DNA of 64,000 nucleotides from Nocardioides sp. (GTDB taxonomy: Bacteria; Actinomycetota; Actinomycetes; Propionibacteriales; Nocardioidaceae). The translations under genes were made by a program, and so were the position numbers. Position 1 is the first letter of the stretch. Each line of letters begins with the position of its first letter. The stretch is from NCBI RefSeq assembly GCF_025965415.1, contig NZ_JAOPWY010000032.1, forward strand, positions 1 to 64,000, in the 5' to 3' direction. Of the stretch, positions 11,874 through 48,387 are shown piece after piece. Below the pieces are notes generated by a model. It ran no database searches, had not been told where the DNA came from, and saw only the letters and a list, made by a program, of their open reading frames with translations.

Positions 11874-12614
11874 GTGCCCGGGGGCGCGGCAACGACAGGG
11901 GCCACCGCGACCCGAGCGCTCTACCACCGGGTCGTGGGCGCGACAGCGATCGCGTTGGCGGCATCGGTGGCGATCCAGAACGTGGTGGTGGTCTGGGCCG
12001 GGGCGCCGAGCTACGGGGACCCGATCAAGGATGTGCTTGCCTTCCACGCGGAGCATCGGGTCGCGGTCGAGATCGCGGTCGGTCTGGAGGCGCTGAACCT
12101 GCCGCTGCTGCTCGGGTTCCTGACCGGTCTCCACGGCCTCGTCGGGCGTCGCGGGGGTGCGGGCGCGGACTGGTCGCGCCTCGCGCTGGCCGCGGGCGCG
12201 ACGCTCTCGGCGGTCTTCGCGCTCTACGCCGTTCTGTGGAACGGTGTGGTGCTGTCCGCGGGCGAGCTCGCCGCGCCGAGCCCCGAGTTCGAGCTTGTCT
12301 GGCAACTGCATGCAGCAGCGTTCGCGCTGGCGCTTCCGGCGCTCGGCGCCACATTCATCGGCGCTGCGCTGGCGGCGCACACGAGCCGGCTGACGCCGCC
12401 GTGGCAGCGTCTGCTCGGAGTGGCAGGGGGAGGCCTGCTGCTCGCCGCCGGGGCGGCGAACCTCGCGATCGCGGACGGCTCGGCGCTCCTGTTCGTGGGG
12501 TTGCCCGGCTATGCCGCCTGGCTCGTGTGGCTGCTTGCGACCGGCGTACGGCTGGTGCGCGCTCGAACAGCTGACCGCACTGACGACGCATCGACCTCCA
12601 CCGAGGAGGAATGA
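11874..12614 (+). CDS. hypothetical integral membrane protein
   Basis: The frame encodes about six hydrophobic segments beginning at GATAIALAASVAIQNVVVVW, with a short charged C-terminal tail rich in Asp, Thr and Glu. The overall look is of DUF4386-type membrane proteins, but I cannot confirm the family. The start is uncertain: the GTG at 11874 is chosen because coding character upstream of it disappears, and no clear ribosome-binding site is present. It lies inside a decaying region, so it may itself be 5'-truncated. Confidence 0.55.
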   Translation: MPGGAATTGATATRALYHRVVGATAIALAASVAIQNVVVVWAGAPSYGDPIKDVLAFHAEHRVAVEIAVGLEALNLPLLLGFLTGLHGLVGRRGGAGADWSRLALAAGATLSAVFALYAVLWNGVVLSAGELAAPSPEFELVWQLHAAAFALALPALGATFIGAALAAHTSRLTPPWQRLLGVAGGGLLLAAGAANLAIADGSALLFVGLPGYAAWLVWLLATGVRLVRARTADRTDDASTSTEEE

Positions 12615-39216: not shown

Positions 39217-39616
39217 CGAGTGGGTCGGCCGGGCGGCCGCGGTCCGCCGTCCTGGGCTTCGGCTCTGGGCGGCTGGTCGAGGAAGGTCCGGGCTCCACAG
39301 GGCAGGGTGGTGGCCAACAGCCACCCGGGGAAACCCGCGGGACAGTGCCACAGAGAACAGACCGCCTCTCCCTCACGGGAGCGGTAAGGGTGAAACGGTG
39401 GTGCAAGAGACCACCAGTGCGCCGGGCGACCGGCGCAGCTAGGCAAACCCCACCCGGAGCAAGATCAGACAGGATGCGTTCGAGGGCGGCCCGCCCGAGC
39501 ATCCGGGTAGATCGCACCAGGCGGCCGGCAACGGTCGTCGCAGATGGATGGTCGCCCCCGCGCCTGAGCTACTTTTCAGGTGAGGGACAGAACCCGGCCT
39601 ACAGGCCGACCCACTC
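39217..39616 (+). ncRNA. rnpB: RNase P RNA (bacterial class A)
   Basis: About 400 bases that begin with GAGTGGGTCGGCC and end with the complementary GGCCGACCCACTC, forming the terminal P1 stem. Conserved cores are visible: GAGGAAGGTCCGGGCTCC at 39279-39296, CCACAGAGAACAGACC in the middle, and ACAGAACCCGGCCTACAGG near the 3' end. It cleaves the leader from precursor tRNAs together with RnpA. The 3' end is the integration site of the element that follows and remains complete after insertion. TAGGCT at 39204-39209 is a candidate -10. Confidence 0.96.
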
Positions 39617-39618
39617 CC
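39593..39618 (+). other. attL core, 26-bp repeat
   Basis: This copy forms the last bases of rnpB (from CCCGGCCTACAGG on). It is identical over 26 bases to the copy at 48362-48387, while the bases on both sides differ. It starts 29 bases before the integrase stop codon. Confidence 0.93.
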
Positions 39619-39646: not shown

Positions 39647-40759
39647 TCAGACGGCCCCGCCAGTCCGCACAGAGTCCGCACGAGCGCCGAGAACGGCGTC
39701 AACGGCGTCCCTGGTGCGGTCGTCAGAGTCCGGCCAGAGGTGCGAGTAGGTGTCCAGCGTCTCCGCGGCCGAGGCGTGCCCCAGCCGCGCCTGGACCGTC
39801 TTCACGGACTCGCCGTGGCGGATCAAGAGCGAGGCGTAGTAGTGCCGCAGCGCGTGCAGGCCCTGACCGGCTGGGATGCCCGCTGCTCGAGCCGCTGGGC
39901 GCCACTGGTGGCCGAACGCCTGCCGAGAGATCGGGAGACCAGAGAGCGTGAACAGCAGGCCACCCGGTTCGACGTCGTACGCCGCCAGGTGTTGCTGCAG
40001 CGCCTCGAGCACGACGTTCGGAACCGGGATGGTCCGGTAGCTCGCCTCCGTCTTCGGAGGGCCCCACACGGGGGTCGTGCCGGTACCGACCAGCTGGCGA
40101 TCGATGGTCACCTCACGGCGCAGGAAGTGCACCCGGTCGAGCGTCAGGCCGCGCAGCTCCCCGCCACGCACCCCGGTCCCGGCTGCGAACGTCACGAGCG
40201 CCCGGAGCTCGGCCGGCATGGCCGCCGTCAACGTCTCGACCTGGTCTGTCATGATCGGGACGACCTTCGACCGCTCACGCTTCGGCAGCCGCGTGCCCTC
40301 GCACGGGTTGGCCGGGATGCGGCGGTCGCGCACGGCGGCCTTGAAGACCGACGACACGATCGAGTGCACGACGGACACGGTTGACGGCGCCAGAGGGCGC
40401 TGGTCCGCTCCCCCGACACTGAGCCGCTTCACCCACGCCTGGACCTCGCTGGGCAGGATCGTGGACAGCGGCCGGTCGCCGAGAGTCGGGTAGGCGTGCC
40501 GGCGCAGCATCGTCTCGACGTGCGCCTGGCTCGAGGGACGGTGCACCTGCGCGTCGCGCCACTTCTCGGCGTACTCACGGAAGGTCATGCGACCGGCGTT
40601 GGGGTCGACGTACTGTCCGGTGACGACGGACGTGGTGACTTCGTCGAGCCACCGCTGGGCATCGACCTTCCGGGGGAAGTGCTTGGAGTGTTCACGACCG
40701 GCGGAGTCCCTGTAGCGAGCCCTCCACTGGCCATTCGGGCGCTTGGCGACACTGGCCAT
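39647..40759 (-). CDS. tyrosine-type site-specific integrase
   Basis: This 370-residue recombinase has an N-terminal AP2-like arm-binding domain (RYRDSAGREHSKHF), a SAM-like core-binding domain and a catalytic domain. The catalytic residues are Arg in GVRGGELRGL, His-x-x-Arg in LHALRHYYAS, His in LGHASAAET and the Tyr in DTYSHLWP. It integrates the element at the rnpB 3' end. The ATG at 40759 overlaps the upstream stop by one base, which decides the start; the longer reading is in the neighbouring gene. GC content is slightly lower than in host genes. Confidence 0.95.
   Translation of the reverse strand: MASVAKRPNGQWRARYRDSAGREHSKHFPRKVDAQRWLDEVTTSVVTGQYVDPNAGRMTFREYAEKWRDAQVHRPSSQAHVETMLRRHAYPTLGDRPLSTILPSEVQAWVKRLSVGGADQRPLAPSTVSVVHSIVSSVFKAAVRDRRIPANPCEGTRLPKRERSKVVPIMTDQVETLTAAMPAELRALVTFAAGTGVRGGELRGLTLDRVHFLRREVTIDRQLVGTGTTPVWGPPKTEASYRTIPVPNVVLEALQQHLAAYDVEPGGLLFTLSGLPISRQAFGHQWRPAARAAGIPAGQGLHALRHYYASLLIRHGESVKTVQARLGHASAAETLDTYSHLWPDSDDRTRDAVDAVLGARADSVRTGGAV
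39663..39680 (+). promoter_or_regulatory. paired arm-type sites, left end
   Basis: GTCCGCA occurs at 39663-39669 and 39674-39680 in direct orientation, period 11. The same pair with the same period lies near the right end (48237-48254). They are the likely integrase or excisionase arm sites. They lie inside the last codons of the integrase gene. Confidence 0.6.
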
Positions 40760-41385
40760 CAGACGATCCTTCCCTTGCTCTTGGCAGGCAGCATGAGGCC
40801 GCGCTTGCGCGCCTTGTAGATCCACGACTGCGCGGTCTTCTTGGTGACGCCTGCCAGATCCGCGATCGTCACGGCCGGCGGCAGGCCTCGAGCGATGGCT
40901 GCGTCGTACGCCTTGCCGACGTCCGAAAGAAACCCATCCGTCAGCCCAGCCTCAGGTGCTTGCAGACGCAGCGGTGGCAAGACGAGCTCCGTAGGAGCTG
41001 CGTTGCGCGACCGGTCTCCCATTCTTGGCTGGCGGATGTCTGACTTCGGGTACTGGGCAAACCACGACAGCGCGACCCAGTTGTGGATGGTGGCCTGCCG
41101 ATCTCCCCAGGTTGTTCCGAAGTGCGACGCCAGCCGGCTCAGATCTGGGCCTGCCACTCCGCGGCGTGCCTTGCTCGACCAGGTTGAGAGCCACTGCTCC
41201 AGCACGGCCAGCGGAAAACGGCGGATCGCGCCGGGCTGGATCGCCTCGCCCCTGCCGTCGATATAGATCTCAGTGACCCGGTCTATCCCGTCAACATCCG
41301 ACAATCGCACATAGGTGCGACCAGGAAGACCAAGGTCGTCGTCCTCGACCTCGACCCAACCTCCGTTGCCTTCGCTCGCTCGCAA
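40759..41385 (-). CDS. putative regulator of the element (integrase-linked)
   Basis: This 208-residue protein has a C-terminal helix-turn-helix (PAVTIADLAGVTKKTAQSWI, near residue 175) and an N-terminal part with YVRLSDVDGI. Genes of this type often sit between integrase and the divergent early genes of actinobacterial elements. It may be the repressor or the integrase activator. The start is a TTG at 41385, directly beside the first GGTAGTAC motif, so autoregulation is likely. Translationally coupled to the integrase gene. Confidence 0.7.
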   Translation of the reverse strand: MRASEGNGGWVEVEDDDLGLPGRTYVRLSDVDGIDRVTEIYIDGRGEAIQPGAIRRFPLAVLEQWLSTWSSKARRGVAGPDLSRLASHFGTTWGDRQATIHNWVALSWFAQYPKSDIRQPRMGDRSRNAAPTELVLPPLRLQAPEAGLTDGFLSDVGKAYDAAIARGLPPAVTIADLAGVTKKTAQSWIYKARKRGLMLPAKSKGRIV

Positions 41386-41475
41386 GGTAGTACTTCCTTC
41401 GCCGTCGGTGGTACTTCCAACTATGTACCTCGCGGCCAGAGTAGTCCACGGTGGTAGTACCTGACAAGTACTACC
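41386..41475. promoter_or_regulatory. divergent control region with GGTAGTAC motifs
   Basis: Three copies of GGTRGTAC (41386-41393, 41407-41414, 41453-41460) and one inverted copy (GTACTACC, 41468-41475) lie between the divergent regulator and alpA-like genes. The last two form an 8-bp perfect inverted repeat with a 7-base spacer. This is the probable lysogeny or induction switch of the element. Confidence 0.65.
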
Positions 41476-41486
41476 CGGGAGCGAAG

Positions 41487-41678
41487 ATGCCTGATTACAT
41501 GACCACCACCGAGGTCGCTGACCTGCTGCGCACCCCAGTCGAGACTGTTCGCTACTGGAGGCACGTCAGCAAGGGCCCCAAGTCCTTCAAGGTGGGCCGT
41601 CGCGTGCTCTACGCCCGCGAGGACGTCGAGGCCTTCCTCGCCGAGGCGCGAACCGGCGTCGGCCCGGACGCAGTCTGA
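41487..41678 (+). CDS. AlpA-like excisionase/regulator
   Basis: This 63-residue protein is a single MerR-like HTH: MTTTEVADLLRTPVETVRYW, then KSFKVGRRVLYAREDVEAFL. AlpA-type proteins regulate excision and early genes in satellites and prophages. The ATG at 41487 follows GGGAG. The next gene's ATG overlaps its stop by one base (TGATG). Confidence 0.85.
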   Translation: MPDYMTTTEVADLLRTPVETVRYWRHVSKGPKSFKVGRRVLYAREDVEAFLAEARTGVGPDAV

Positions 41679-41953
41679 TGGGCCGCCGGGTGCTCGAGGT
41701 CGAGTTCGCCGGCGTTGGCTCCCTGGTCCGGGGCTACGGCTCCCGCGACATCGTCATCTCCGTGACCGGTCGAGCGCCGCTCTGGTCCTCCGTTCGCCGT
41801 GGCTGGAGCCTGCAAGAGTCATCTGCTAGGGACGTCGTCGCGGCAGCCGAGGCGCTGAACTACGACGTCGTCATCACCGGTCGACGCGCTGTGGAGCGGA
41901 ACCCGGCCAACACCCCGCGGGCGGCTGCACCTGACCCGGGCGGTCTCTGGTGA
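41678..41953 (+). CDS. hypothetical element protein (91 residues)
   Basis: It is in the early operon, coupled by stop-start overlap with alpA and with the next gene (GTGA). The sequence has a strand-rich N half (VEFAGVGSLVRGYGSRDIVI) and a helical segment. No family recognised. Confidence 0.6.
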   Translation: MGRRVLEVEFAGVGSLVRGYGSRDIVISVTGRAPLWSSVRRGWSLQESSARDVVAAAEALNYDVVITGRRAVERNPANTPRAAAPDPGGLW

Positions 41954-42180
41954 CCCCGGAGAAGATCGATCGGATCGCCCAGCTGCTCATCATCGATCTG
42001 CTACTCCAGGGCTCGGCCCGGTACTGGCTCAAGCGCGCGGACGACTTCGCCGCGGTGGGCACGCCGGCCTGCGACGAGATCGCCCGGGCGTGCCGCAACA
42101 AGGCCGTGATGTGCCGCTCGGAGGACGAGCGGAACGAATGGGTCGAGCTGCTGGCCCTCGAGCTGGGTGACGTCGCATGA
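41950..42180 (+). CDS. hypothetical element protein (76 residues)
   Basis: A short, largely helical protein (IAQLLIIDLLLQGSARYWL) that starts at GTG overlapping the previous stop and ends with ATGA overlapping the next start. This tight coupling supports that it is translated. No family recognised. Confidence 0.6.
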   Translation: MTPEKIDRIAQLLIIDLLLQGSARYWLKRADDFAAVGTPACDEIARACRNKAVMCRSEDERNEWVELLALELGDVA

Positions 42181-42629
42181 CCTGGACCAAGACTGGCGAT
42201 GAGTTCGCCGACGACTGCGCCAACGTCGACCTGTCAGACGCTGCCTACCGCACACACCACGAGGCGATCAGCTGGCTCTACCGAGTGGAGCGGATCGACT
42301 GCCGGGTTCCCACTCGGCTGGTGCCCAGGTTCGCCGGCTCACCCCACGTCGAGCTCGCGATCCAAGAGCTGGTGAACCACGGATGGTGGCGGATCAACCA
42401 GCAGGACTACGAGATCGTCCACCACTCCGACGTCATCCGCAGTTCGATCGTGGCACAGCAGAACAACCGCGCCAAGAACAAGCGGAACCAGGCTGCCTAC
42501 CGTGCTCGAGCCAAGCCATCTGTAAGCGATGACGTAACCGGTTACCCAGACAGACAGACAGACAAACAGGCAGCTACGACGGAGGCACCAACAACCGGGT
42601 GGCCGGACACGATGGAGGTCACGCCATGA
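42177..42629 (+). CDS. putative replication initiation or DNA-binding protein of the element
   Basis: This 150-residue protein has a winged-helix-like N-terminal half (LSDAAYRTHHEAISWLYRVE, IQELVNHGWWRIN). A basic stretch (QQNNRAKNKRNQAAYRARAK) and a flexible tail follow. The pattern is common in short replication-module proteins of actinophages. A CAGA tetranucleotide run encodes DRQTDKQ near the end. Function is inferred from pattern and place; no helicase or primase motif is present. Confidence 0.55.
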   Translation: MTWTKTGDEFADDCANVDLSDAAYRTHHEAISWLYRVERIDCRVPTRLVPRFAGSPHVELAIQELVNHGWWRINQQDYEIVHHSDVIRSSIVAQQNNRAKNKRNQAAYRARAKPSVSDDVTGYPDRQTDKQAATTEAPTTGWPDTMEVTP

Positions 42630-42874
42630 CGATCACTACGCGCTGCGAGCACTGCCACTCGCCGGCCGTCGAGCACGCCGGCATCGTGCGAGTCGTGCAC
42701 CTGAGCTGGTGCCCGAGGGCACCGCGTTCGGTCTCCATACCGCTGCTCCCCCCCGGGGAGGGGCCAGCACGTCCAGACGCTGGCCCATCCACCCCAGCTC
42801 CAAACTCCGCATCTCTCTCTCCGCACCCCCCCCTCCCCCTCCCCCTCCCAGCGAGAGGCGAGGTGCTGGCATGA
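42626..42874 (+). CDS. small zinc-ribbon-like protein with a repeat-derived tail
   Basis: This 82-residue frame has a Cys/His N-terminal part (TRCEHCHSPAVEHAG, SWCPRAPRS) that could bind zinc. The C-terminal 45 residues are encoded by repeat A and are low-complexity Pro. The original protein was probably about 36 residues longer at most, or ended differently before the repeat arrived. Coupled to its neighbours by ATGA overlaps at both ends. Confidence 0.5.
   Translation: MTITTRCEHCHSPAVEHAGIVRVVHLSWCPRAPRSVSIPLLPPGEGPARPDAGPSTPAPNSASLSPHPPLPLPLPARGEVLA
42748..42830 (+). repeat. element repeat A (about 85 bp)
   Basis: A C-tract/G-tract (CCCCCCCGGGGAGGGG) is followed by a hairpin (GGGCCAGC paired to GCTGGCCC around ACGTCCAGAC). 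The core TCCACCCCAGCTC lies at 42788-42800, with a pyrimidine tail ATCTCTCTCTCCGC. It shares its layout with repeats B and C. Confidence 0.75.
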
Positions 42875-43173
42875 CCAGCGACAACCCGCTGAAGGGCATG
42901 GACCCGGGGGGCCCTCAGTCACGGCGAGGCACGTCTCCTGGGACCTCTGCCCCGCTTTTCGGCGTCTCTCCCCGGCAGATCGTTGGACGCATCCCCGGGG
43001 GGAGGGGTCGACACGTAGGCCCCGCAGGCCATCCACCCCAGCTCGCTTCCTTTCGTCTGTCCCTGAGCTTTTTTTCGGTGGAGGTGGATCGCGATGGCTG
43101 GCCGCAAAACCCGACTGCGCTCCGTCGCTCCAGACGAGCAGCCCGCCAAGGTCAAGCCGAAGACGTTGGCTGA
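42871..43173 (+). CDS. uncertain open frame through repeat B
   Basis: It begins with an ATGA-coupled start and a plausible sequence (MTSDNPLKGMDPGG). From about residue 40 it runs through repeat B and then, out of frame, through the next gene. If translated, the true product is short or truncated by the repeat. Listed because the start is coupled to the preceding gene. Confidence 0.3.
   Translation: MTSDNPLKGMDPGGPQSRRGTSPGTSAPLFGVSPRQIVGRIPGGRGRHVGPAGHPPQLASFRLSLSFFSVEVDRDGWPQNPTALRRSRRAARQGQAEDVG
42993..43076 (+). repeat. element repeat B (about 85 bp) with terminator-like end
   Basis: It has the same order as repeat A: CCCCGGGGGGAGGGG, a variable segment with CACGT, and the core TCCACCCCAGCTC at 43032-43044. 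The tail differs and ends in AGCTC...GAGCT plus seven T (43069-43075), which could terminate transcription. It lies 17 bases before the terminase-like frame. Confidence 0.75.
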
Positions 43174-43333
43174 GGCCGTCGAGGGCGACGACTACCTGAT
43201 GATTCTGATCGCTCAGCGTCGCGAGGTCTCAGGGGGTTTTTCAGTGCGCGGAGAGAGAGATCCGAGGAACGGAGCTGGGGTGGACGGGGGTCGTGCATCA
43301 CGTCCGACCCCCACCCCCGGGGGGTTGTGGTGA
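43094..43333 (+). CDS. terminase small subunit-like protein, truncated by repeat C
   Basis: The first 46 residues (MAGRKTRLRSV, LAEAVEGDDYLMILIAQRRE) resemble the N-terminal part of small terminase-like proteins of actinophages. From there the frame enters repeat C and becomes low complexity (RASRPTPTPGG). It has a good ribosome-binding site (GGAGG). The DNA-binding half may be kept and the rest lost. It is flanked by repeats B and C in opposite orientation. Confidence 0.5.
   Translation: MAGRKTRLRSVAPDEQPAKVKPKTLAEAVEGDDYLMILIAQRREVSGGFSVRGERDPRNGAGVDGGRASRPTPTPGGLW
43230..43324 (-). repeat. element repeat C (about 90 bp, inverted)
   Basis: Read on the minus strand it has CCCCCCGGGGGTGGGGG, a hairpin (GGGGGTCG paired to CGACCCCC), the core TCCACCCCAGCTC (43272-43284) and the tail ATCTCTCTCTCCGC that is shared with repeat A. 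It ends with five A and C-tract sequence. Its orientation is opposite to A and B. Confidence 0.75.
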
Positions 43334-43719
43334 GCGCGCTCTCTCCCCGTCTCCGTCGGTTCCTGACGAACGCGGTCATGGCGCACGGCAACGCACTGGC
43401 TCGAGCTGGGCAGATGGATCCGGCCCTGAAGGCAGAGGTGCGCGACCTGATCGCTGAGCTGGTGCTGACCCCTGAGGAGGACTGGAAGGGACTGGAGGGG
43501 ACATCGGATGCGCCGGCCGCTGGATCCGGCGACGCTTCTGGTGGGACAGGTGGTCGCTCCACGGCGGTGAGTCGGTCCGAGGCGGCCGAGCTGCTTCAGA
43601 TCTCGACCAAGCACCTCGACCGGCTCATCGCTGCCGGCCACCTCCCCAGCCAGAAGGCAGGCCGTCGCAGGTTGATCGCCCGCGAGGACATCGAGACGTA
43701 CATGCGGGAGGCATCGTGA
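43330..43719 (+). CDS. AlpA/excisionase-type HTH protein with N-terminal extension
   Basis: This 129-residue protein has a helical N-terminal part (RRFLTNAVMAHGNALARAGQ) and a Gly/Ala/Ser linker. The C-terminal HTH (SRSEAAELLQISTKHLDRLI, then RRRLIAREDIETYM) is of the excisionase family. It ends in a GTGA overlap with the protease gene. It may regulate the capsid operon or be a second excision factor. An extra GTG codon at 43327 is a possible start. Confidence 0.7.
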   Translation: MSALSPRLRRFLTNAVMAHGNALARAGQMDPALKAEVRDLIAELVLTPEEDWKGLEGTSDAPAAGSGDASGGTGGRSTAVSRSEAAELLQISTKHLDRLIAAGHLPSQKAGRRRLIAREDIETYMREAS

Positions 43720-44282
43720 CCCAGACCAAGAACTTCTCGGACGTGGTCGTTAAGAACGCGGCCAAGGGCGAGGTGTCGGCCGTCTTCTCGACGTTCAACC
43801 ACCTCGACCTGGACGGCGATGTCACGCTGCCTGGCGCGATCAAGGACGGTGCCGAGGTCGTCATCTCGGCGTACGGCCACCAGTCGCACTACGGCGCACT
43901 GCCGGTCGGCCGCGGGAAGATCCGCACGACGCCCACCGTGGCCATTCTCGAGGGCCAGTTCTTCATGAGCACCGAGTCCGGCCGCGACACGTTCGAGATC
44001 GTCAAGGAGCTCGGCGAGCTGGGTGAGTGGTCCTACTCGCTCCACGACGTGGTGTCGGAGCGCGGGACCTGGCAGGGAGAGCCGGCGAACCTGCTGAAGT
44101 CGATCCGGGTCAAGGAGGTCTCACCCGTTCTCCTCGGCGCTGCGGGCCCGGGGGCCACCCGGACTCTCGTCGCCAAGGCCGCCAGCCACGTCGACCCAGA
44201 CCTCCACAGCATCGCCACCGCGCTCCGCATCCGCACCGGGATGCAGGCGCTCCAGAGCAAGTACCTGAAGGAGACCCCGTGA
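43716..44282 (+). CDS. HK97 family prohead protease
   Basis: This 188-residue serine protease matures phage capsids. Features are FSTFNHLDLDGDVTLPGAI near the start, the His in YGHQSHYGALPVG, and the Ser region LGEWSYSLHDV, then SVLL-like EVSPVLLGAAG. It starts with GTG overlapping the upstream stop. It is followed by a coiled-coil gene and the capsid gene, the usual order for HK97-type head modules. Confidence 0.9.
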   Translation: MTQTKNFSDVVVKNAAKGEVSAVFSTFNHLDLDGDVTLPGAIKDGAEVVISAYGHQSHYGALPVGRGKIRTTPTVAILEGQFFMSTESGRDTFEIVKELGELGEWSYSLHDVVSERGTWQGEPANLLKSIRVKEVSPVLLGAAGPGATRTLVAKAASHVDPDLHSIATALRIRTGMQALQSKYLKETP

Positions 44283-44686
44283 ACACCTGCACCTGCTGCG
44301 CCGTCCACAACCAGGGTGTGCACCGGACAGGCGACCTCGTCAGTCCGTCCGACCATCTCAAGCCCGCCAGTACCCCTGGGATCGTCCGGGCAGAGGCGGC
44401 CCTGGACAGGGCGATGGAGCGCGAGGCCAAGGCCCGGGCCGAGTGGAGCCGCCTGGAATTGGCGCGGCGTGCGCACGAGAACCAGCTCATGGTCACCTGG
44501 CGAAACCACCCCGGAGGCATCAAGGCCGCGCCGGCGCACCTCCTCGCGGAGATGGAGGGGATGGCCGACCAGTCCAAGAAGCAGCTCGAAGAGCTCCACC
44601 GACTCGGCCTCGAGACCGTGGCCGCGCGGGCGCGCGTGGCCCACGAGAACCACAAGGCCACCCAACTCATGATCGCCAACTGGTGA
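44279..44686 (+). CDS. coiled-coil protein between protease and capsid (possible scaffold)
   Basis: This 135-residue protein starts with GTG overlapping the protease stop. It has a Cys-rich N terminus (NTCTCCAVHNQGVH), followed by two long helices with coiled-coil character (AALDRAMEREAKARAEWSRL, KKQLEELHRLGLETVAARAR). A helical protein at this place, together with a capsid protein that lacks the long N-terminal delta region, suggests a separate scaffold. This is inference only. Confidence 0.65.
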   Translation: MNTCTCCAVHNQGVHRTGDLVSPSDHLKPASTPGIVRAEAALDRAMEREAKARAEWSRLELARRAHENQLMVTWRNHPGGIKAAPAHLLAEMEGMADQSKKQLEELHRLGLETVAARARVAHENHKATQLMIANW

Positions 44687-44697
44687 AGGGATCCACC

Positions 44698-45621
44698 ATG
44701 AAGAGCAAGAGCATCGGACAGGCGTTCGTCGACGGAGGCGGCGCCACCAAGCCCCTGAAGGGGTGCAGCGGCCCCGAGATCGAGGTGAAGGGGGTCGACG
44801 TCAAGACGCTGATGACCACCTCGACGTACGTCCCGGATACCGGCCGGGATGGCGCGGTCAGCGTCTCCATCGCCACCCGCACGCCGACCCTGATGGACCT
44901 GGTCACGGCCACGCCCACCGACTCGGACCCCTACACGTTCATGGAGGAGACCACCTTCACGAACAACGCGCTTGAGGTCGCCGAGGGGGGCACGTACGGG
45001 GAGGCGGCCCTGGGCTTCACCGAGCGCACGGTCGACGTCTCCAAGGTCGTGGTGTGGCTGCCCGTCACCGACGAGACGCTGGAGGACACGGCCGGCCTTC
45101 CCGGCTACATCGACCAGCGCCTCGGCTTCATGCTGCGTCAGCGGACCGAGCTGCAGATGCTCGTCGGCAATGGCACGGCGCCGAACATGCGCGGGATCCT
45201 GAACACGGCCGGCATCCAGACCCAGCCCAAGGGTGCCGACACGATCGCCGTGGCCGTCCGCAAGGCGCGGACCAAGGTCAAGACGCCCGGCTACGGCAAC
45301 GCGGACCTGCTCGCGCTCAACCCGGCCGACTCCGAGGACATCGACGTGGCCGCCGCGGTCGACCTCCAGGCGCCGTTCATCGACACGTCGAAGATGTGGA
45401 ACGTCCCCCGCTACGAGAACGACGGACTCACGGCCGGCACTGGGCTCATCGGCGACTTCGCCAACTACACGGCGCTCAAGGTGAAGAAGGCGATCACGCT
45501 CAAGGTCAGCAACAGTCACGGCACGTTCTTCGTCGAGGGCAAGCAGGCGATCCGCGCGGAGATCCGGGTCGCGTTCGTCATCTTCCGCCCGGCCGCCTTC
45601 GTGACCATCACCGGGATCTGA
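44698..45621 (+). CDS. HK97-fold major capsid protein
   Basis: This 307-residue protein has HK97-fold features: TPTLMDLVTATPTDSDPYTF, VVVWLPVTDETLEDTAGLPG, LRQRTELQMLVGNGTAPNMR and a C-terminal GKQAIRAEIRVAFVI. The ATG at 44698 follows AAGGGA. HK97 gp5 is about 385 residues with a 100-residue delta domain; here the N-terminal part before the fold is only about 40 residues, so the delta domain is missing or very short. Confidence 0.92.
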   Translation: MKSKSIGQAFVDGGGATKPLKGCSGPEIEVKGVDVKTLMTTSTYVPDTGRDGAVSVSIATRTPTLMDLVTATPTDSDPYTFMEETTFTNNALEVAEGGTYGEAALGFTERTVDVSKVVVWLPVTDETLEDTAGLPGYIDQRLGFMLRQRTELQMLVGNGTAPNMRGILNTAGIQTQPKGADTIAVAVRKARTKVKTPGYGNADLLALNPADSEDIDVAAAVDLQAPFIDTSKMWNVPRYENDGLTAGTGLIGDFANYTALKVKKAITLKVSNSHGTFFVEGKQAIRAEIRVAFVIFRPAAFVTITGI

Positions 45622-47226: not shown

Positions 47227-47379
47227 ATGGCCGCACCCATCAGACCCGCCAAGCGCGAACCCTGCCCTGAGTGCAGCGGGACCGCATTCCACGTAGACAC
47301 GATCAGCCCGGACCGCCTAGGCGACGGGCTGGAGCGGGTCACGTGCGATCAATGTGGGCACGTCGTCAGCAACAGATGA
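47227..47379 (+). CDS. small zinc-ribbon protein (50 residues)
   Basis: MAAPIRPAKREPCPECSGTA is followed by VTCDQCGHVVSN. The CPEC...CDQC pattern is a treble-clef or zinc-ribbon type, typical of small phage proteins. It is coupled to the next gene by ATGA overlap. Confidence 0.65.
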   Translation: MAAPIRPAKREPCPECSGTAFHVDTISPDRLGDGLERVTCDQCGHVVSNR

Positions 47380-47633
47380 CGACCCCCGCCCCGATGCCTG
47401 AGCGCCTGACCAAGGCCGCCGACCTGGCCGCCGAGTGGGACATGTCCGAGGGCGAGCTGAAGCGTCTGGTGCGTCGCAACGGCTGGCCGTACGTGCGCCT
47501 CACGCGGACCGACTGGCGTTTCACCGATGAGCAGTTGGCGCAGATCATTCGGACGCAAACGACGTCGGCGAGGGCTCCCGAGAAGCCCTCGCCGACGGGA
47601 CAGAGCAAGCTCAGCCGCGCACGCTCCTACTGA
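47376..47633 (+). CDS. small HTH protein (85 residues)
   Basis: It has a helix-turn-helix-like region (ERLTKAADLAAEWDMSEGEL, RRNGWPYVRLTRTDWRFTDE) similar to excisionases, and a basic tail. It is convergent with the XRE-type gene. Probably a regulator of the element. Confidence 0.6.
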   Translation: MTTPAPMPERLTKAADLAAEWDMSEGELKRLVRRNGWPYVRLTRTDWRFTDEQLAQIIRTQTTSARAPEKPSPTGQSKLSRARSY

Positions 47634-48361: not shown

Positions 48362-48387
48362 CCCGGCCTACAGGCCGACCCACTCCC
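48362..48387 (+). other. attR core, 26-bp repeat
   Basis: This copy is identical to the end of rnpB at 39593-39618. Bases on both sides differ from the left copy. It also encodes the last five codons and stop of the kinase gene on the other strand, so the target sequence serves both genes. Confidence 0.93.

Follow-up and report, generated by a model that had tools for sequence, protein, structure and literature searches.

The stretch of DNA analysed here (the window, 64,000 nt) contains an integrated element of 8,769 bp, measured from one copy to the other of its 26-bp attachment repeat, and both att repeats are intact. It is integrated at the 3′ end of rnpB, which encodes the RNase P RNA. 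The genes of the element and the repeats among them are as follows.

39593..39618, no strand: attL, 26-bp repeat, overlapping the 3′ end of rnpB (39221-39617)
39647..40825, minus: tyrosine integrase (PF00589, E 3.3e-21; phrog_1, E 3.1e-73)
41451..41678, plus: HTH_17 protein, probable excisionase (Pfam scan)
41678..41953, plus: small protein; 20 of the 215 genomes of the genus, the own one among them, encode relatives
42177..42629, plus: replication-initiation-like protein (phrog_3926, E 2.4e-6)
42626..42874, plus: ORF that starts as a small CxxC protein and runs into repeat A; no PHROG match
42749..42824, plus: repeat A, cos-like, with G-block, ACGT, core (42788-42800) and pyrimidine tail
42903..42987, plus: copy D, a worn fourth cos-like site between A and B
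42993..43064, plus: repeat B, cos-like, directly 5′ of the TerS-like start; core 43032-43044
43094..43333, plus: TerS-like N-terminal fragment, about 46 residues, followed by unrelated residues reading through repeat C
43248..43324, minus: repeat C, cos-like, inverted, at the end of the broken TerS-like gene; core 43272-43284
43327..43719, plus: HTH_17/excisionase-family protein (PF12728, E 1.1e-11; TIGR01764, E 2e-11)
43716..44282, plus: HK97-type head maturation protease (phrog_80, E 3.1e-10; 69% over 150 residues to the prophage of genome G019)
44279..44686, plus: 135-aa ORF between the protease and capsid genes, overlapping the protease stop; no PHROG match
44698..45621, plus: major capsid protein, HK97 fold (PF05065, E 3e-28, for the frame 44443-45621; 54% to the G019 prophage)
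48362..48387, no strand: attR, second copy of the 26-bp repeat

The protein encoded from 43094 gave a weak match to phrog_1459 (E 0.0062, residues 5-46) and aligns with the TerS of the phages LilSpotty and Sarge and of the prophage L052, the last of which matches phrog_1459 at E 2.1e-11. The likeness of the protease to its G019 counterpart stops before its C-terminus. If started at the ATG at 44698, the capsid protein is without the N-terminal segment of its relatives, its alignment starting at residue 82 of the 403-aa G019 protein, and the frame is open upstream to 44443; the preceding 135-aa frame is perhaps a separate scaffold gene. Neither TerL nor portal nor HNH genes were found in the element among the proteins scanned or with a TerL/portal tblastn panel of limited sensitivity, and no tail gene was recognised. 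The excisionase-type HTH protein that sits between copy C and the protease has an extra N-terminal part, and another excisionase-like frame lies at 47271-47633.

The initial annotation had described three related 85-bp repeats, A and B direct and C inverted, with an identical 13-bp core. The relationship and the orientations are real, and all three copies fit the ungapped frame GGGG-N5-ACGT-N15-TCCACCCCAGCTC; a common block is present, although the three-way similarity peaks over about 55 bp and not over 85. The core, TCCACCCCAGCTC, is exact in A, B and C and nowhere else in the 4.2-Mb assembly, where 16 matches occur at up to one mismatch. The pyrimidine tail ascribed to A and C was likewise recovered (83% over 41 nt), B being less like C (75% over 36 nt). 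Exact identity between copies extends over 16 bp at most (A and B), so the repeats are unlikely to be an assembly artefact. Copy D, which had not been described, carries a tail that matches the tail of the G019 site over 47 nt (83%, E 2.4e-6). As to the short frames whose 3′ ends the repeats were said to overlap, C does lie at the 3′ end of 43094-43333 and A in the second half of 42626-42874, but B lies inside the frame 42709-43173, which is not taken for a gene. The terminase-like gene that had been placed between B and C is the TerS-like fragment of the frame 43094-43333, whose TerS-like part ends just before C.

Matches to the capsid protein were present in 13 of the 215 genomes of the genus, own included, and through their capsid genes we located two prophages, in G019 and G226, each of which carries a single block of the repeats' design immediately 5′ of its terminase genes, with the same spacing, CACG-N19-ACCCCAGC. 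In G019 (L051), the closest other capsid match, the order is HNH-like gene, block, gene in the TerS position, TerL, portal, protease and capsid; the block has the sequence CCCCCGGGGGTCGGGTCGACACG-N19-ACCCCAGCACC, with the tail GGCATCTCTCCCC. The TerL and portal of this prophage match PHROGs. The gene 5′ of its block has no PHROG match and is called HNH-like for its 32% identity to the HNH protein of G226, while the gene 3′ of the block matches only phrog_6975, to which no function is assigned there, and is thus a TerS by position only; a protein search with part of this gene, which precedes TerL, gave no match. The prophage of G226 (L053) has a TerL that differs from that of G019 and a block of the same kind, preceded by an HNH gene (phrog_1808, E 3.9e-15) and followed by a small TerS-matching gene and directly then by TerL. 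This small gene matches the terminase small subunit family phrog_1897 at E 2.4e-9 and, better, phrog_226 (E 2.6e-32), a family labelled minor tail protein. By eye, an apparent transposase gene lies where the block would be expected in G182 (L052), and looser look-alikes can be seen 5′ of TerL (L054, L128, L136) and 5′ of TerS (L145).

A template was made of the 33 columns in which the sites of G019 and G226 agree, and both strands of the window (about 128,000 positions) were scanned with it without gaps, in a register that was chosen after the likeness of A, B and C to these sites had been noticed. Copies B, C and A scored 26, 25 and 24 of 33 and took ranks 1, 2 and 3, so that they have the frame and spacing of the sites of their close relatives. 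Among 3,836,940 positions of 60 Markov decoy sequences of 64 kb, scanned on one strand, a score of 24 was reached once and 25 never. The score of D was 22 (joint rank 5-7), which taken alone is within chance, and D sits in the same 600 bp as the other three.

A sequence-only model of the A, B, C, G019 and G226 sites (R1) was run on the 215 genomes and matched 46 places in 42 of them at E <= 0.05. Five places in three genomes (own included) were strong (E <= 8.5e-10), each at a phage module; these five are the training sites of the model, and the next match had an E of 0.0011. Near 27 checked of the 41 weaker places (E >= 0.0011), no Ter or HNH homologues were found, and two prophages checked alongside them do have such homologues. 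With R1, neither a copy scattered in a chromosome nor a further cos array was found among the 215 genomes, nor was a helper carrying such a site found in the own genome.

A model built only from more distant sites did not set the copies apart from decoys. An HMM of eight cos sites, with G019, G226 and LilSpotty left out, gave 4.3 bits for B, 4.2 for C and 3.5 for D, with A not among the listed hits, and the copies remained below the best decoys (up to 10.4 bits). When the G019 and G226 sites were added (ten sites), B became the top hit with 11.6 bits (E 0.44), followed by the best decoy with 7.6, D with 5.4 and C with 4.8. Cos sites of this type vary much, and given this result the identification of the copies as cos sites rests on the close relatives, the position and the spacing. 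The exact pattern ACGT-N15-core had no occurrence in viral contigs; the 20 stretches with it in genome contigs, where about 30 are expected by chance (17 fixed bases, 257 Gb; our own arithmetic), were rejected, none of them having the G-block. A DNA search of phages with 42600-43720 of the window gave no match. Two DNA matches in relatives, L057 and L058, were rejected as cos relatives, being ordinary-looking frames without the cos pattern.

The ends of phage genome records gave a further point of comparison. Phage references were picked by DNA matches around TerL or by TerS homologues, and the ends of seven records were inspected (those of Butters, Panchino, Sbash, Eyre, LilSpotty, Sarge and Shoya); in the practice of these depositors, record ends represent the physical ends of the DNA. 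In all seven, an HNH-type gene lies close to the right end and TerL is the second gene from the left, and a G-block with a C-rich core precedes the junction, in good form in five of the seven and loosely in LilSpotty and Eyre. In Butters, Panchino and Sbash, the record ends with the HNH gene, the G-block and GACCCCGCC... and starts with a tail such as GTCAGGAATCTCTC; Sarge and Shoya end in TCCGCCCGGTA. The annotation of gene 1 is terminase small subunit for Sarge and Shoya and hypothetical protein for the other five. For Alatato, which belongs to cluster FB as do Sarge and Shoya, a passage of PMC12716707 gives the 3′ overhang TGCCGCCCGGTA, and a passage of PMC4939774 on a phage set that includes Panchino and Sbash reports discrete ends in 52 of 61 phages, the individual phages not being named there. 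Viral contigs offered similar ends: of the 14 found, ten were inspected for upstream DNA, and L123, L124, L126 and L129 begin within the tail motif, while L128 spans it. By analogy with the phage records and contig ends, the sites at A, B and C may coincide with ends of virion DNA.

A cut position can be predicted from the same records. Gene 1 of LilSpotty, Sarge and Shoya is related to the 43094 protein, and its start codon follows the record start by 53, 48 and 58 nt, respectively. Counted back from 43094, these distances would make the first base 3′ of the cut in B fall at 43036-43046, that is, at the 13-bp core, where we infer that B would be cut. Only B has a TerS-like gene just downstream, 50 nt before the ATG at 43094, and no recognised TerS follows A, D or C; judged from this arrangement, B is the putative site belonging to the TerS-like gene. 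The actinobacteriophage cos region (HNH at the right end, TerL as gene 2; cluster N Butters and Panchino, Sbash, and cluster FB Sarge and Shoya) resembles the copies in its succession of G-rich block, variable stretch, C-rich core and tail, and in a gene 1 start about 50 nt after the cohesive end. The difference lies in number and context, since each of these records has one junction, whereas the element has three good copies and a worn one, with one copy inverted and the TerS-like gene broken.

The repeats had also been suggested to be a replication origin, small structured RNAs or a tiny mobile unit. In favor of an RNA or an origin present in three copies, A and C contain hairpins, and A folds clearly better than its shuffled versions (z -2.50). 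The variable stem-loop segment with ACGT attributed to all three copies is, however, only partly borne out: ACGT is common to A, B and C, but the 8-bp stem of A and C is absent at the corresponding place in B, and the folds of B, C and D are not clearly better than those of their shuffled versions (z +0.82, -0.53 and +1.12). A consensus fold of five sites contains one compensated pair of nine, so the covariance analysis proposed for the stem revealed practically no covariation, and a conserved structure is unsupported given the missing stem in B, the good folding of A alone and the single compensated pair. In addition, no Rfam match at the gathering threshold was found in the repeat region, and in other phages the block tracks the start of the terminase gene, which leaves an RNA or origin function highly improbable. 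A small self-spreading unit would account for three to four copies in both orientations within 600 bp. Yet the strong R1 matches beyond the window are the packaging modules of two prophages only, and the scattered chromosomal copies that such a unit would leave were not found by R1 in the 215 genomes; we regard this explanation as slightly more improbable still.

Common layout and spacing, position 5′ of terminase genes and agreement with the ends of phage records indicate instead that A, B, C and the worn D are, as far as their sequences can tell, very probably cos-type packaging sites. Of the packaging sites (cos or pac) by a small-terminase gene that had been proposed, cos is thus retained and pac is not, and the neighbour is a TerS-like N-terminal fragment. 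The association with terminase genes, for which a comparison across genomes had been proposed, has held, the place before these genes being common to the related prophages and phages. The intact att repeats, together with the capsid and protease genes and the lack of a recognised TerL, portal or tail gene, make it likely that we are dealing with a phage satellite, or with one that was active until recently. We therefore read the whole, with a probability of roughly 0.8, as the cos sites of a SaPIbov5-like phage satellite that form an unusual array with one site inverted.

Comparison with known satellites places the element between described types. SaPIbov5 is a cos-type SaPI whose capsid homologue Ccm alters the helper head, according to passages of PMC5052747 and PMC8569155. 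The two are alike in general description, as compact integrated elements that combine a cos site (a probable one in the present case) with an HK97-fold capsid homologue; the element differs in its adjoining protease homologue, its actinobacterial host and its several cos-like sites. What would be expected of a cos-type PICI is present here, namely an integrase and att repeats without an own TerL and, by homology, a capsid homologue and a cos site. Capsid-forming PICIs, as described in part of PMC10690885, encode a whole packaging set including portal, connectors, TerL, TerS and HNH. They share with the element a capsid protein and a head protease, but TerL, portal and HNH were recognised neither among the proteins scanned in the element nor, as far as the panel reaches, by tblastn.

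Satellites with two cos sites are known. Passages of PMC6739421 and PMC6092414 state that the E. coli PICI EcCICFT073 has cos1 and cos2, both functional, in which cosN, but not cosB, resembles the helper sequence, that exchanging cosB between cos1 and cos2 changes recognition, and that SaPIbov4 has two putative cos sites; the authors raise the question of why some islands carry two. EcCICFT073 resembles the element in having several cos sites in one satellite with a conserved cosN and a differing neighbouring part. This likeness is one of layout, and EcCICFT073 differs in having two sites shown to function, other helpers and, by the description given, no capsid morphogenesis genes. Three or four clustered sites are without a report that we could find: no account of three or more in one satellite was found in the open-access literature, among the matches listed, and the available sections of PMC10700106 and PMC9026076 yielded no statement on cos sites or DNA ends.

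In the satellite reading, packaging would proceed as in cos phages, where a TerS-TerL terminase binds cos and cuts concatemeric DNA to give cohesive ends. A helper phage's terminase would recognise at least one of the sites, cut at the core and package the element, whose capsid protein may change the helper head as Ccm of SaPIbov5 does. The core TCCACCCCAGCTC would cover most of the cohesive-end region (cosN), which may be why it is identical while the flanks vary, and an identical core with variable flanks would suit a cohesive end that is matched to one terminase or to a partner end. The array itself probably arose through successive recombination or joining events at the cohesive-end sequence common to the copies, where the identical core could have guided the joining of different phage ends, each event presumably leaving a cos site and a scrap of the DNA that followed it.

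Whether the cluster has a present role is a separate matter. The element could be a decayed prophage that holds its cos sites by descent, the cluster being a scar of phage recombination at cos with no present role. The TerS-like gene that ends just before C, the wear of D, the lack of a recognised TerL, portal or tail gene in the element, and the mere scrap of left-end-like DNA that, as we read it, follows each copy all fit such a history; moreover, the truncated TerS, the early end of the protease likeness and the lack of a helper found by R1 suggest that the element may be decayed. The att repeats are nevertheless intact, the integrase is present, the capsid and protease frames are open and the core is unchanged in three copies, and another small element (in G102, described below) has a capsid gene and a cos-like site with no TerL seen. 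We consider a scar to be a serious possibility, with somewhat less than an even chance. A working array, in which sites of the same cosN and different flanking recognition parts are kept for different helper terminases or for a redirected terminase, is a more tentative proposal. It accords with the identical core and variable flanks of A, B and C and with the two functional cos sites of EcCICFT073, in which the exchange of cosB alters recognition (passages of PMC6739421 and PMC6092414), but R1 found no other array among the 215 genomes, and the inverted copy C would direct packaging the other way.

Under the cos reading, an unexplained repeat becomes a candidate packaging site with a testable cut position, and the cluster an extreme case of the two-cos question raised for E. 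coli satellites. A working array would illustrate how satellites may come to use more helpers; a scar would be the trace of past recombination at cohesive ends. A census of small actinobacterial elements that carry a capsid gene, and in which no terminase is found, would be worthwhile.

The 41678-type gene provided a route to such elements. Among the 20 of 215 genomes that have it, 16 regions were fetched and the frames of five were listed. The element in G102 (L145:6000-14200) is about 8 kb long and by eye splits a chromosomal gene; PHROG matches mark a large integrase (phrog_95 at E 5.4e-98), a TerS of full length (phrog_1459 at E 1.9e-19) and a capsid frame (phrog_10 at E 1.1e-38), and the element has one cos-like site with, by eye, a CxxC-type ORF 5′ of it, as in the window. 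No TerL or portal was found among ten of its proteins scanned, nor with the tblastn panel, which we judge not sensitive because it missed the capsid gene there. In the G013 element (L056), an integrase-like frame accompanies a capsid gene, and the seven proteins scanned included neither TerL nor portal. Tape-measure genes occur in elements with the 41678-type gene in G072 and G067. No structural gene was recognised by eye in G107 (L148), and G145 (L146), with a match to TerL, has the appearance of a full prophage. No cos array was seen in the five listed elements or in G013 with the patterns and matrix used. It is conceivable, though we hold it doubtful, that the element belongs to a family of small satellites in the genus whose members hold one or a few structural genes derived from helpers (the capsid in the window, G102 and G013; the tape measure in G072 and G067) along with a common small-gene module, and that it keeps an array of cos variants, with one inverted, for several helper terminases.

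Some minor observations were made on the fetched sequences. The integrated elements at L150:6958-10251 and L141:7175-10297, which have the 41678-type gene, each contain a tail tape-measure gene, with no TerL or portal by the small and not very sensitive tblastn panel. On the reverse strand of L056, at about 12160-12230 and downstream of the G013 capsid gene, a G-rich block resembles by eye part of a cos region. Finally, the stretch before a TerL match at L131:955-1955 reads by eye like the end of an intein, suggesting a TerL intein.
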